A stretch of DNA of 64,000 nt from Effusibacillus dendaii (GTDB taxonomy: Bacteria > Bacillota > Bacilli > Tumebacillales > Effusibacillaceae): assembly GCF_015097055.1 (NCBI RefSeq), contig NZ_AP023366.1, forward strand, positions 372,001-436,000, given 5' to 3'. The notes under the pieces were generated by a model that worked only from the letters and a program-made list of their open reading frames with translations, had not been told where the DNA came from and ran no database searches. Shown one piece after another: positions 19,623-24,214 of this stretch; position 1 is the stretch's first letter; every line of letters starts with the position of its first letter. The position numbers were made by a program, and so were the translations under genes.

Positions 19623-20870
19623 ATGGCGAAAATCGACTCACTCGGCTCAGCAAACGATAAACCGTATGTTGTCTACCATGTGCTCGATACGCTTCTGAAT
19701 GCCGGATTTGAAGCCTATTTGGTGGGGGGCTGTGTGCGGGACAAACTGCTGGGTCTGACTCCGGGCGATTATGATGTAGCCACAAACGCGCTGCCAGATC
19801 AGGTGCAATCCTTGTTTCCCCATACGGTGCCTACCGGTATTCAGCATGGTACGGTATCTGTATTGGAGGATGGGGAACGGATTGAAGTGACCACGTTTCG
19901 CCGCGAGGGAGTGTACAAAGATGCCAGAAGGCCGAGTGAAGTCAGATTTGATGCCTCGTTACAGGAAGATTTGGCGAGACGGGATTTCACCATCAATGCC
20001 ATGGCGCAGGACAGATTCGGTAACTTATTCGATCCGTTCGGGGGACAGTCTGATTTGGAACAACAGATCATTCGGGCTGTGGGCGATCCGTCTGCCCGAT
20101 TTCAGGAAGACGCTTTACGGATGTTGCGGGCTGTCCGTTTTTCTGCTGTTTTGGGGTTTCAGATCGAATCGGAAACGTGGCGGAGCATAATCCAACATGC
20201 GCCGATAATCGGACGAATCGCTCGTGAGAGAATACGGGATGAATGGAATAAAATGGTGTGCGCCGATCTGTCACTGGGGGTTGATCAACTCATTCGATCG
20301 GGGCTTTTCTCCTTTATTTTTGGCTCCATTCTGTCCCGTACAAAGGAGGAATGGCTGCGGGCCGCACAATTTGCAGACCGCTTGCCGAAAAAATTGGATT
20401 TGCGCCATGCGGCATTACTACTGGGGACAGACGTGCGTCTCGTGCAAAAATGGATGAATCAGATACGGCAGCCGAAACGTCTGACTCGTTCGGTTGTCGC
20501 CATCTTAGAGGCGATGCCTGACTCGAACCCGCTCCGCTGGTCTCCGTTTGATTGGCGGCAGTTTCTCTATCAACACGGGCAACATGCTGCCGAACAGGCG
20601 ATTTTGATCTATAGTCAAATGATACCGGTCGATGCGGATAAATTGATCGCAGTCTGTTTGGCTTCTATCGAGGACCAACCGATTTGGTCGCTTGCCGATC
20701 TTGCTGTGACAGGGCATGACATCCTTAAACATACTGGCAGACGACCAGGTCCCTGGTTGGGACCGCTGCTGAACCAATTGGCGCAATTGGTCCTGACAAA
20801 TCCCAATTTAAACCGGTCGCAGGAGTTAAAACATGCGGCCGAACATTTTTTGCAAAAAGGAAGTCTGTAA
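19623..20870 (+). CDS. cca: CCA tRNA nucleotidyltransferase
   Basis: It adds or repairs the 3' CCA end of tRNAs. The class II nucleotidyltransferase head has YLVGGCVRDKLLG followed by the metal-binding DYDVAT. RRDFTINAMA and the neck motif EDALRMLRAVRFSAVLGF follow. Length 415, with a helical C-terminal body. No HD phosphohydrolase domain is apparent, as usual for Bacillota. The ribosome binding site is weak (AGGG). birA starts two bases after its stop. Confidence 0.95.
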   Translation: MAKIDSLGSANDKPYVVYHVLDTLLNAGFEAYLVGGCVRDKLLGLTPGDYDVATNALPDQVQSLFPHTVPTGIQHGTVSVLEDGERIEVTTFRREGVYKDARRPSEVRFDASLQEDLARRDFTINAMAQDRFGNLFDPFGGQSDLEQQIIRAVGDPSARFQEDALRMLRAVRFSAVLGFQIESETWRSIIQHAPIIGRIARERIRDEWNKMVCADLSLGVDQLIRSGLFSFIFGSILSRTKEEWLRAAQFADRLPKKLDLRHAALLLGTDVRLVQKWMNQIRQPKRLTRSVVAILEAMPDSNPLRWSPFDWRQFLYQHGQHAAEQAILIYSQMIPVDADKLIAVCLASIEDQPIWSLADLAVTGHDILKHTGRRPGPWLGPLLNQLAQLVLTNPNLNRSQELKHAAEHFLQKGSL

Positions 20871-20871
20871 A

Positions 20872-21843
20872 ATGAGCGATATGAAGGAACGGATCTTGCA
20901 ACTGCTGCGAACACATCAAACAGATTACATATCGGGCGAGGAAATTTGCAAACAGTTTTCCGTCAGCCGTACAGCGATCTGGAAACATATTAAAGAGCTG
21001 CAGGATGAAGGATATCCAATTGATGCGGTGCGCAATAAGGGATACAAATTGCTGGCTCTGCCGGATCTGGTTACAGCCGCAGAAATTCGTGAGGGACTCA
21101 TGACCGAGAGGATGGGGCAAAAAATACTGTCTCTGAAAACGGTTGACTCCACCAACGTACTGGCAGCCAAAATGGCTGACGAAGGCGCGTCGGAAGGAAT
21201 GCTTGTCATTTCGGATATGCAAACCGGCGGTAAAGGACGCCGTGGCAAATCCTGGTTTTCTCCATCAGGAACGGGAATTTGGATGAGCCTGGTTTTGCGT
21301 CCCAAATTGTCTTTTTCACAGGCGCCTCAGCTGACATTGGTAGCTGCTGTTGCGGTCAGTCAGGCAATCAGTCAGCATATGGGGAAAAAAGCGGGCATCA
21401 AGTGGCCTAACGATATTTTACTGGACGATAAAAAATGCTGCGGCATCCTGACCGAAATGAATATTCGTTCGGAAGAAATCGATTATGTCATTTTGGGAAT
21501 CGGCCTCAACGTCAACCAAACAGCAGATGATTTTCCGGAGGAACTGAGATCGACTGCCACATCGCTCAGAATTTATTCGGGTACACCTTACAAAAGGGCG
21601 TCTGTGGTGCAAAGTATTCTTGAGCGATTTGAGACGCTGTATGATTCGTATGTGAAGCAGGGAAGTTTTGCAACGATTCGCGAACAGTGGAAAGCGCAGA
21701 GCGTCACAATCGGGAAACGCGTATCTGCCTATCTGGCCGAGGGCATCATAACGGGGACAGCGGTCGATATTGATGATGTGGGCGCGTTAATTCTGGAAAC
21801 AGAAAACGGACAGCGAAAGGTTTATTCGGCGGATATCAGTTAA
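20872..21843 (+). CDS. birA: Bifunctional biotin-[acetyl-CoA-carboxylase] ligase and biotin repressor
   Basis: BirA biotinylates the carboxyl-carrier protein and represses biotin genes. An N-terminal winged helix (GEEICKQFSVSRTAIWKHIKEL) precedes the ligase domain. The biotinoyl-AMP loop is GGKGRRG at about 119-125, followed by KWPNDILL and the C-terminal SH3-like domain. The ATG at 20872 is chosen (AAAGGAAG upstream, two bases after cca). The frame extends into cca but without a better site. The product has 323 residues. Confidence 0.94.
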   Translation: MSDMKERILQLLRTHQTDYISGEEICKQFSVSRTAIWKHIKELQDEGYPIDAVRNKGYKLLALPDLVTAAEIREGLMTERMGQKILSLKTVDSTNVLAAKMADEGASEGMLVISDMQTGGKGRRGKSWFSPSGTGIWMSLVLRPKLSFSQAPQLTLVAAVAVSQAISQHMGKKAGIKWPNDILLDDKKCCGILTEMNIRSEEIDYVILGIGLNVNQTADDFPEELRSTATSLRIYSGTPYKRASVVQSILERFETLYDSYVKQGSFATIREQWKAQSVTIGKRVSAYLAEGIITGTAVDIDDVGALILETENGQRKVYSADIS

Positions 21844-21847
21844 CCTC

Positions 21848-21876
21848 TATACAAGAAATCGTTTTCAGTCTATACT
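21848..21876 (+). promoter_or_regulatory. Likely promoter for the panBCD leader, overlapped by a palindrome
   Basis: TATACA (21848-21853, four of six matches to TTGACA), 17 bases, TATACT (21871-21876). The perfect inverted repeat GTTTTCAGT/ACTGAAAAC (21861-21869 and 21874-21882) covers the -10 box, so it could be an operator. A start near 21883 fits the structured leader that begins there. Confidence 0.5.
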
Positions 21877-21882
21877 GAAAAC

Positions 21883-22054
21883 AGGAGGCGGTATCCAAGC
21901 GTCGAATGTGCGATGGAACTGTACTCCGTATACAGAATTTTCGCAATGTCAAACTGTACGTTAATTCTGCTCTGAGCCGCCAATGGACCGAGACAGAGGA
22001 CCTTACGGGAGAATGTTCGTAAACCTTTTCGCGCTCTGGCCGAAAAGGTTTTTT
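21883..22054 (+). ncRNA. Structured 5' leader of panBCD (candidate pan-type cis-regulatory RNA)
   Basis: The 170-base leader folds on paper into an outer helix GGCGG (21887-21891) with CCGCC (21977-21981). This encloses a hairpin with CTGTA/TACAG (21919-21923, 21931-21935) and an outer GCGA/TCGC, separated by an internal loop with unpaired A residues. Next come TTACG/CGTAA (22004-22008, 22017-22021) and then a strong terminator, so attenuation is plausible. Bacillota panB operons are known to carry the 'pan' RNA motif, a stem with bulged adenosines. I cannot confirm its consensus here. It is not a T-box (no intact TGGNACCGCG). Confidence 0.5.
22021..22054 (+). terminator. Terminator inside the panBCD leader
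   Basis: AAACCTTTTCG (22021-22031) and CGAAAAGGTTT (22041-22051) pair perfectly with a nine-base loop, followed by T residues to 22054. It lies 46 bases before the panB start, so it either ends a small transcript or is the off-state of an attenuator. Confidence 0.85.
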
Positions 22055-22100
22055 GTACTTATCGGAAACAGACGGCTGCGGGGGTCAAGGGGGTCACACA

Positions 22101-22961
22101 ATGTCTGAACAGAAAGTAAAGCAGACAACTGTGTCATTAAGAGAAATGAAAAAAGAGAACAAGCGGATTGCAATGGTAACCGCCTATGATTATCCGTCTG
22201 CAAGTGCGGTGGAAGAGGCGGGCGTCGATCTCATCCTGGTCGGCGATTCACTGGGTATGGTGGTCTTGGGATATGACACTACCTTGCCTGTTACAATGGA
22301 AGATATGATCCATCATACGAAGGCGGTCAAACGAGGTGCCAAAAACACATTTGTGGTGACCGACCTGCCATTTTTATCCGCTCATATCTCACTATCAGAG
22401 ACGGTTCGAAATGCCGGCCGATTGATCCAGGAGGCAGGTGCCGATGCAGTCAAATTGGAAGGCGGCAGGGAGATGCTGGAGGAAGTTCGCGCCATTATTC
22501 GCGCCAATATTCCAGTGATGGGCCATCTCGGACTCACGCCTCAGTCGGTCAATCAATTGGGCGGTTTCAAATTGCAAGGCAAGGATTTGGACAGCGCCAA
22601 GCGAATTTTTGAAGACGCGATGCTGCTGGAGGAAGCAGGCTGCTTTGCGATTGTGTTGGAGATGGTTCCGACACCGCTCGCCGCATTGATTTCCGAACAC
22701 TTGAAAATCCCGACAATCGGAATTGGCGCCGGAGCAGGCTGTGATGGACAGGTTCTGGTGATTCACGATATGCTCGGCATTACTCATAACTATATGCCGC
22801 GTTTTGTCAAAACATACAGTCATCTGTACGGCTCAATGGTGGAATCGCTGCAAACTTACAGCCGGGAGGTAAAGGAAGGCGCATTTCCGACAACTGAACA
22901 TGAGTTTGGCATGAAAGAGGAAGTACTGTATCAACTGAAAAAGGAGCTTCAGTTGTCATGA
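22101..22961 (+). CDS. panB: 3-methyl-2-oxobutanoate hydroxymethyltransferase
   Basis: PanB makes ketopantoate from 2-ketoisovalerate and methylene-THF, the first committed pantothenate step. The 286-residue TIM barrel has MVTAYDYPSA, the metal and substrate loop VGDSLGMVVLGYD, KLEGG and the C-terminal GIGAGAGCDGQVLV segment. The ATG at 22101 follows AAGGGGG seven bases upstream. panC starts in an ATGA overlap with its stop. It lies downstream of the terminator-bearing leader. Confidence 0.96.
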   Translation: MSEQKVKQTTVSLREMKKENKRIAMVTAYDYPSASAVEEAGVDLILVGDSLGMVVLGYDTTLPVTMEDMIHHTKAVKRGAKNTFVVTDLPFLSAHISLSETVRNAGRLIQEAGADAVKLEGGREMLEEVRAIIRANIPVMGHLGLTPQSVNQLGGFKLQGKDLDSAKRIFEDAMLLEEAGCFAIVLEMVPTPLAALISEHLKIPTIGIGAGAGCDGQVLVIHDMLGITHNYMPRFVKTYSHLYGSMVESLQTYSREVKEGAFPTTEHEFGMKEEVLYQLKKELQLS

Positions 22962-23818
22962 AAACTTTGAATCAGATCCAAATTCTGCATACGATTGATG
23001 ATATTCGTCGTTTTGTAAAACAGCACCGGGCGGACGGCAGGTCAATTGGCCTCGTGCCGACGATGGGATCCCTGCATGAAGGTCATTTGGCGTTGGCAAG
23101 GCAAGCAAAGCAGCAATGCGACATAGCGGTGATGAGTATTTTCGTCAATCCGTTGCAGTTTGGTCCAGCAGAAGATTTTGACCGATATCCTCGAAATTTG
23201 GAGAATGATGCGAAATTGGCGGAAACGGCCCAAGTGGATGCGATTTTTGCGCCATCTGTACGGGAAATGTATCCAAATCAACAATTCACATACGTAGATG
23301 TCGAACTTTTAACGGAAAACCTTTGCGGGGCGTCCCGGCCAGGCCATTTTCGCGGTGTAACTACGGTCGTTTCCAAACTGTTCCATATTGTGCTGCCTGA
23401 CAAAGCGTTTTTCGGTCAAAAAGATGCGCAGCAGTTGCGTGTCATCCAGCAGATGACCGAGGATCTGAATATGCCGGTTGAAATCGTTCCTTGCCCGATT
23501 GTCAGGGAACCGGACGGATTGGCGATGAGTTCCCGCAACGTATTCCTTTCGCCGGAAGAGCGAAAACAGGCATTATCCCTGTTTCGTTCCCTGCAGGAGG
23601 CGGAGATGCTGTACCGGTCAGGCGAGCGATCCGCCCAAGCGATTTTAAACCATGTGGCGGCAATCATTAAACAACAGCCGTTGGCCGATATTGATTACAT
23701 CAAGATCGTCGATGCGAAAACACTGTCAGATGTTCAAACGATCGAACAAAAAGCTTTGCTCGCATTGGCGGTCCGATTTGGGCAAACCAGGTTGATCGAC
23801 AATACGTTTTTGGATTGA
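22958..23818 (+). CDS. panC: Pantothenate synthetase
   Basis: PanC joins pantoate and beta-alanine using ATP. The nucleotidyltransferase HIGH-like motif is in PTMGSLHEGHLALA, the KMSKS equivalent is LAMSSRN, and DKAFFGQKDAQQL is the family signature. Length 286, full size. The start overlaps the panB stop by four bases. panD follows after 12 bases, which gives the standard panBCD operon. Confidence 0.97.
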   Translation: MKTLNQIQILHTIDDIRRFVKQHRADGRSIGLVPTMGSLHEGHLALARQAKQQCDIAVMSIFVNPLQFGPAEDFDRYPRNLENDAKLAETAQVDAIFAPSVREMYPNQQFTYVDVELLTENLCGASRPGHFRGVTTVVSKLFHIVLPDKAFFGQKDAQQLRVIQQMTEDLNMPVEIVPCPIVREPDGLAMSSRNVFLSPEERKQALSLFRSLQEAEMLYRSGERSAQAILNHVAAIIKQQPLADIDYIKIVDAKTLSDVQTIEQKALLALAVRFGQTRLIDNTFLD

Positions 23819-23830
23819 GGGGGGACAGAA

Positions 23831-24214
23831 ATGTTTCGCACTATGATGAAAGGGAAAATTCACAGAGCGGTTGTCACACAGGCAAACCTGAACTATATTG
23901 GTTCCATTACAATTGATGAAGATATTTTGGATGCGGTTGACATATTGGAAAATGAAAAAGTGCAGATCGTCAACAACAATAACGGGGCACGGCTTGAAAC
24001 CTACGTTATTCCAGGTCCACGCGGCTCCGGCGTGATTTGTTTAAACGGTGCGGCTGCCCGTCTTGTGCAGGAGGGCGATACGGTCATTATCATTTCATAT
24101 GCCTTGGTTGAAGAGTCCAAAGTTCGGGAGCACCGGCCAGTGGTTGCGATTATGAATCCGGATAACACGATCCGGGAATTAATCAAACAGGAACAGCACA
24201 GTACCGTTTTATAG
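23831..24214 (+). CDS. panD: Aspartate 1-decarboxylase proenzyme
   Basis: PanD makes beta-alanine from aspartate. It is a pyruvoyl enzyme that self-cleaves between G24 and S25 (YIGSITID), leaving S25 as the pyruvoyl group. K9 and H11 at the N-terminus ([11 protein letters not shown]) are conserved. The 127-residue length is normal. It is the last gene of panBCD and is followed by a clear terminator. Confidence 0.97.

Follow-up and report, generated by a model that had tools for sequence, protein, structure and literature searches.

The OFF riboswitches and the protein-dependent attenuators of Gram-positive bacteria share a common layout, in which a promoter is followed by a sensor, a mutually exclusive antiterminator and terminator, and a biosynthetic operon. 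In the ANTAR systems, termination is prevented by a dimeric protein bound to two hairpins, the second of which overlaps the terminator. The predicted layout of the pan leader is that of the OFF attenuators, from which it differs in having no known ligand or protein. With the ANTAR targets it has in common two tandem hairpins ahead of a terminator. However, the second pan hairpin overlaps a proposed antiterminator rather than the terminator, and the predicted sign is therefore the opposite.

In its original description, the pan motif is a stem from which two A residues bulge, found mostly in tandem, and its status as a riboswitch carries a question mark (Weinberg et al. 2010, PMC2864571). The passages of that paper considered here mention neither a terminator nor an antiterminator for pan, and the word antiterminator is absent from its main text. 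Passages of the transcriptome studies of Bacillus methanolicus (PMC4342826) and Paenibacillus riograndensis (PMC5670726) place pan before panB. In a 2024 paper on the CoA pathway of B. subtilis, the terms riboswitch, RNA motif and terminator are absent from the main text (PMC11487621). Among the literature matches listed, a scope that leaves supplements and subscription papers aside, none is a study of pan function later than that of Weinberg et al. While the pan family is thus already known, the comparison of leaders presented here suggests an antiterminator mechanism for it, which is new.

We analyzed a stretch of 64,000 nucleotides from Effusibacillus dendaii (the window), in which birA is followed by panB, panC and panD (Table 1). 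The gap between birA and the ATG of panB, which an earlier note made from the sequence had put at about 250 bases, is 257 nt by ORF coordinates. The longest birA ORF begins at 20833, and a named relative is Tumebacillus flagellatus, whose PanB is 69% identical at the protein level. We propose, with a probability of roughly two in three, that the pan RNA in this gap acts on panBCD as an OFF-type transcription attenuator, for which the comparative evidence is good but not complete.

Table 1. Features of the birA-panBCD region, in window coordinates; the promoter and the antiterminator are predictions
Feature	Coordinates	Strand	Basis
birA (biotin protein ligase / repressor), upstream gene	20872..21843	+	Pfam HTH_11, BPL_LplA_LipB, BPL_C; ORF list
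Predicted sigma-A type promoter, TATACA-17-TATACT	21848..21876	+	9/12 consensus matches
Inverted repeat over the -10, GTTTTCAGT ctat ACTGAAAAC	21861..21882	.	z -4.2
pan unit 1 hairpin, A21893 and A21923 bulged, loop larger in this genome	21885..21926	+	RF01749 alignment
pan unit 2 hairpin of the CUGCUCUGAGCC form, A21975 and A21993 bulged	21967..21996	+	RF01749 alignment
Proposed antiterminator 5' strand, GACAGAGG; unit 2 3' strand and tail, competes with unit 2	21992..21999	+	set-wide complementarity, register
Proposed antiterminator apical stem, UUACG/CGUAA	22003..22022	+	read from alignments, energy computed
Proposed antiterminator 3' strand, CCUUUUC; part of terminator 5' arm	22024..22030	+	set-wide arm analysis
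Intrinsic terminator: hairpin 22021-22051 and T run to 22054	22021..22054	+	hairpin/T-run finder
panB, ketopantoate hydroxymethyltransferase	22101..22961	+	Pfam PF02548
panC, pantoate-beta-alanine ligase	22958..23818	+	Pfam PF02569
panD, aspartate decarboxylase	23831..24214	+	Pfam PF02261

The earlier note had suspected a pan RNA, possibly a divergent one, and had left room for a different element. In a covariance-model search, the Rfam family RF01749 (pan) covers positions 21885-22000 over the full length of the model (1-92 of 92) with 38.3 bits, above the gathering cut-off of 36.2 bits; the E-value is 0.0048 over the whole window and 3.7e-5 over a 501-base stretch. As an Rfam scan of these 501 bases up to an E-value of 1 returned pan alone, a different or unknown RNA element was rejected. 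The match is the only one for RF01749 in the 3.45-Mb genome, and the B. subtilis genome, which was used as a control, likewise carries pan. A plasmid similarity search gave no match.

Like the members of RF01749, the leader contains tandem hairpins before panB, panC and panD in a bacterium of the Bacillota. Bulged adenosines, which had been noticed in one hairpin, are present in both, all four of them, and in each unit the bulged A residues on opposite strands lie five positions apart. The leader differs from the family description in the enlarged loop of unit 1 and in the CUGCUCUGAGCC form of unit 2, whose two pairs, U.C and G.A, are flagged as non-standard by Rfam. When the pan segment is folded alone, its minimum-free-energy structure is not the pan structure, so that the assignment rests on the covariance model and the relatives and not on energy. 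The leader is an ordinary member of a known, functionally open family.

Above the cut-off, pan is found in 10 of 14 genomes examined from the order (the source genome counted), in 158 of 299 genomes sampled from the class and in 107 of 299 sampled from the phylum. Two sets of leaders, whose linkers vary in length, were compared. The first consists of 130 loci, with L138 and L212 dropped as duplicates of L052 and L010. Named genomes, of which several are Clostridia, supply 16 of these loci, and each is counted as a single group; the 41 groups of the set are 29 families numbered by the tool and 12 named loci counted singly. The second set consists of 66 loci outside the class, which are new data, though the hypothesis arose with a few Clostridia in view. 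The CUGCUCUGAGCC form of unit 2 is present in at least 37 of the 130 first-set loci and in at least 17 groups, which rules it out as a local oddity of the window's order.

With PanB, PanC, PanD and BirA of the window as the only queries, the first recognized gene downstream of pan in the first set is panB at 120 loci and panC at seven, with none at three. At nine of these 120 loci another gene intervenes and the distance to panB is 0.86-1.14 kb; the three loci without a recognized gene are one that is cut by the contig end (L159) and two at which panB starts right at the end of pan (L169, L177). In the second set, panB comes first at 41 loci, panC at 17, birA at two and panD at one, with none at five. 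Pfam assignments for the downstream proteins of eight second-set loci (the seven with birA or none first, and L233) place pan before a component of an ECF-type transporter (ECF_trnsprt) in at least four cases: L278 has it directly after pan, L220 and L269 have birA in between, and L239 has a BioY gene in between. Against NCBIfam, these components gave sub-threshold matches only, of the folate and thiamine types. If pan controls both synthesis and uptake, the ECF contexts would suggest that it senses the end product, pantothenate or CoA, and not an intermediate. In some lineages, pan may thus be predicted to control vitamin uptake as well.

The promoter-like pair seen earlier in the gap is supported by its place. 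Its score alone is not evidence, because a scan of 5.5 kb gave six sites of such a score against 6.4 expected by chance. The -10 element ends 8 nt upstream of pan, and among the 11 order loci whose upstream sequence is long enough this distance is 7-10 nt, with a match of 9/12 in nine loci and 8/12 in two. Over a wider range, a pair of at least 9/12 lies in the 70 nt before pan at 67 of the 129 loci that have sufficient upstream sequence, compared with 2.6% of control windows; at 50 of the 67 loci, the distance from the end of the -10 to pan is 5-9 nt. The controls, five windows per locus taken further upstream, are mostly coding and make this contrast a generous one; the fixed position is unaffected. 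The transcript is predicted to start at about 21884, at the first base of pan, and pan is therefore predicted to be the 5' end of its own transcript.

The perfect palindrome reported over the -10 is present, and its sequence is not conserved. Although the exact repeat is not common to the relatives, other dyads with z of -3.3 or lower occupy the same place in four of the 10 other order loci. Dyads of differing sequence thus sit on the -10 in five of 11 order loci (the window, L006, L007, L008 and L012; z -3.3 to -4.4), and in some of these they extend into the first bases of pan. As a general feature, a palindrome over the -10 is ruled out by the mean z of 0.06 outside the order. An operator and a structure in read-through transcripts are candidate explanations for the dyads.

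The strong terminator that had been placed 46 bases before panB was recovered at that distance. Its hairpin has an energy of -14.7 kcal/mol, and the TTTTTT run ends 46 nt upstream of the panB ATG. A simple terminator scan missed it, probably because of the bulge in its stem. Among the relatives, a hairpin of -10 kcal/mol or lower with a T run follows pan at 114 of 130 first-set loci, against 23 of 258 control windows, and at 55 of 66 second-set loci, against 8 of 130. A loose limit of -5 kcal/mol raises these counts to 122/130 and 63/66, which overstate the case because 61/258 and 38/130 controls are also called; the limit of -10 gives the better contrast.

The 122 and 63 loci were kept for the analyses of the terminator arms and therefore carry the looser limit and some choices made by hand. 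The eight of 130 left without a terminator are L015, L169, L171, L177, L201, L202, L207 and L210; five of these (L177, L201, L202, L207, L210) were excluded by name after inspection, and L201 and L202 show a CCUU-armed hairpin. At four of the 122 loci (L026, L039, L048, L054) an alternative hairpin call was chosen; all four have CCUU arms, which slightly favors our reading. Miscalls among the 63 include at least L253, where the wrong hairpin was taken, and L278, whose hairpin lies within the gene; L273 is doubtful. The background consists of 391 hairpins followed by a T run, many of them probably not real terminators. Its sources are the window, with the leader itself, and 20 loci out of the 80 numbered L056-L135.

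It is in the arm of this terminator that the evidence for an antiterminator lies. Terminators seldom conserve their sequence. After pan, the 5' arm contains CCUU at 102 of 122 first-set loci, representing 36 of 41 groups (98 of 118 loci when the four alternative calls are left out), compared with 23 of the 391 background hairpins. In a single register, this arm is the complement of the segment formed by the 3' strand of pan unit 2 and its tail. The duplex of the two has a mean energy of -11.5, against -5.9 with background arms; by this measure 72 of 122 loci, and 23 of 41 groups by their median, beat 95% of the background arms, and 71 of 122 loci beat every upstream window of their own leader. 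When the arms were aligned independently of pan, model positions 87-91 paired with CCUUYU in 103-119 of the 121-122 cells per position; pairing is found in 62/120 at position 92, 46/121 at 85 and 47/121 at 86. A role as antiterminator strand would account for the conservation of the unpaired tail in the Rfam model (89-92), as positions 89-91 pair in most first-set leaders.

Covariation in homologous leaders had been named as a check on such a leader, and within the first set alone it was not found. Arms swapped between families were as good as or better than the real ones in 81 of 500 swaps with all 122 loci, in 450 of 2000 for the 29 rare tails and in 440 of 2000 with one locus per group, and in another swap test, too, the swapped arms scored nearly as well as the real ones. 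The observed value was reached by 216 of 500 register permutations, and with one locus per group P was about 0.1 in one alignment and 0.60 in another. The swap tests are uninformative in this set because both strands are nearly constant there.

Between groups, the two strands do change together. In the second set, CCUU occurs in 41 of the 63 terminator arms, the mean duplex energy is -10.0, and 21 of 63 loci beat 95% of the background. Relative to the first set, these 63 leaders, all of them outside the class, have both strands altered together, typically with G-C in place of A-U. Unit 2 has C for U at the partner of model position 87 in 50 of 63 (CCG..CGG for CUG..CAG), and the arm and loop contain CCUUYC in 30 of 63 leaders, compared with 10 of the 122 first-set leaders, and CCUUYU in nine of 63, compared with 87 of 122. 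At model 87, the triplet made up of the unit 2 5' strand, the unit 2 3' strand and the arm is U-A-U in 72 first-set loci and C-G-C in 32 second-set loci. By group majority, A-U, A-C, G-U and G-C number 30, 7, 9 and 20 (66 of 73 groups, the other seven having other letters), for a Fisher P of 5e-5 that is uncorrected for relatedness. This position carries much of the change, and its association by locus in the second set alone is not significant (P 0.13).

In the register test with all 185 loci, 72% of the cells are paired, compared with 48-58% when the strands are slid, and none of 500 permutations reached the observed value, either for the whole set or for the second set. With one locus per group (n=73), 69.8% of cells are paired against 67.9% when permuted (mean P 0.002); the permutation P is 0.0025 when seven doubtful hairpins are dropped (70 groups), and 0.018 for the second set alone. 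These P values ignore relatedness, and one old clade split could account for part of the signal. We take the covariation between groups as support, not proof, for the predicted antiterminator. The attenuator layout read from this one leader is thus supported by the conserved promoter and terminator and by class-wide complementarity between unit 2 and the terminator arm.

In the window, the pairing would join GA[C]AGAGG with CCUUUUC, and the apical stem of the genus is UUACG or UUGCG with CGUAA in four loci, with one G-U change. The predicted energy of this antiterminator, -7.0, is far weaker than the -15.2 computed alongside it for the terminator, and the best fold of the segment is in a shifted register, GAGGA/UUUUC. 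In the window's order, tail and arm do not pair more strongly than background (median ranks of 0.35-0.39 for f1, f2 and f5), and the antiterminator segments fold no more strongly than shuffled ones (p 0.19-0.77). For the window itself the rank of the short pairing is 0.35 and the p of the segment fold 0.41, neither of them above chance. As the pairing in the window is at chance level, the claim that this leader would use it leans on the family.

Such a weak antiterminator, together with the fact that the terminator does lie after birA, would suit a simpler explanation, namely that the terminator just ends birA transcription and that pan has no attenuating role. We consider this very improbable, as the promoter, which holds a conserved position between birA and pan, would feed into that same terminator, the arm sequence of the terminator is kept across families, and the promoter scan listed nothing promoter-like downstream of the terminator as far as panB. 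The arrangement that would have spoken against attenuation, a birA terminator followed by a separate promoter for panB, is therefore not the one seen here, where the promoter lies upstream of pan.

In the attenuation mechanism that we propose, transcription would begin at the pan element. An effector signalling that there is enough pantothenate or CoA would hold both pan hairpins folded, so that the terminator would form and panBCD would be left unread. Upon release of unit 2, GACAGAGG would pair with CCUUUUC in the 5' arm of the terminator, and this antiterminator pairing would block the terminator and allow panBCD to be transcribed. The several mutually compatible stems described in the earlier note hold in part: the pan hairpins are compatible with the terminator, but unit 2 is not compatible with the proposed antiterminator. 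From this mutual exclusion comes the predicted sign. Because unit 2 shares bases with the antiterminator, and the terminator shares none with pan, a stabilized pan should terminate.

The opposite sign, in which bound pan would favor readthrough as an ON switch, is suggested by the resemblance of the two tandem hairpins before a terminator to the ANTAR layout. However, stabilizing unit 2, with its share in the proposed antiterminator and none in the terminator, should favor termination, and the occurrence of synthesis and uptake genes together suggests repression by the product. We therefore regard an ON switch as unlikely.

As for the effector in an OFF attenuator, there is a little under an even chance that a dimeric protein charged with a ligand of the CoA pathway holds unit 2 and so brings about termination. 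The simplicity of the tandem arrangement led Weinberg et al. (2010, PMC2864571) to suggest a motif bound by a dimeric protein, and the bulged A residues placed five positions apart on opposite strands in both units fit such a partner. However, the tandem design also fits two cooperating aptamers, and the genes observed after pan encode pathway enzymes, transporters and a few other proteins, with no candidate among them. More tentatively, pan may be a metabolite riboswitch with tandem, cooperating aptamers for vitamin B5 or CoA, with the 3' strand of unit 2 as the antiterminator strand, in which the ligand would switch off synthesis (panB, panC or panD) and, in some lineages, ECF-type uptake. 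If the antiterminator holds, pan would be the switch for vitamin B5 synthesis in much of the Bacillota, and its conservation provides a predicted sign and exact bases that are testable in B. subtilis.

Several leaders show other arrangements. Six genomes of one genus have two pan leaders each, one before panB and one before panC (L136/L137, L052/L139, L140/L141, L142/L143, L144/L145 and L146/L147), and each of these is then followed by a terminator-like hairpin. A gene for a Rossmann/DUF2520 protein (Pfam), perhaps a candidate ketopantoate reductase, lies between pan and panB or panC in L203, L207 and L233, and a similar-looking gene, judged by eye, is present in L240, L241, L274, L276 and L262. 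Downstream of pan there is also an OPT-family transporter gene in L246 (646-2085), an amidohydrolase gene in L264 (2-1366) and a short ORF without assignment in L243. Leaders without a convincing terminator are L169, L177, L278, L171 and L015. In the first three of these, the tail of pan falls on the ribosome-binding site or the gene start, a placement that suggests a translational version of the same switch.
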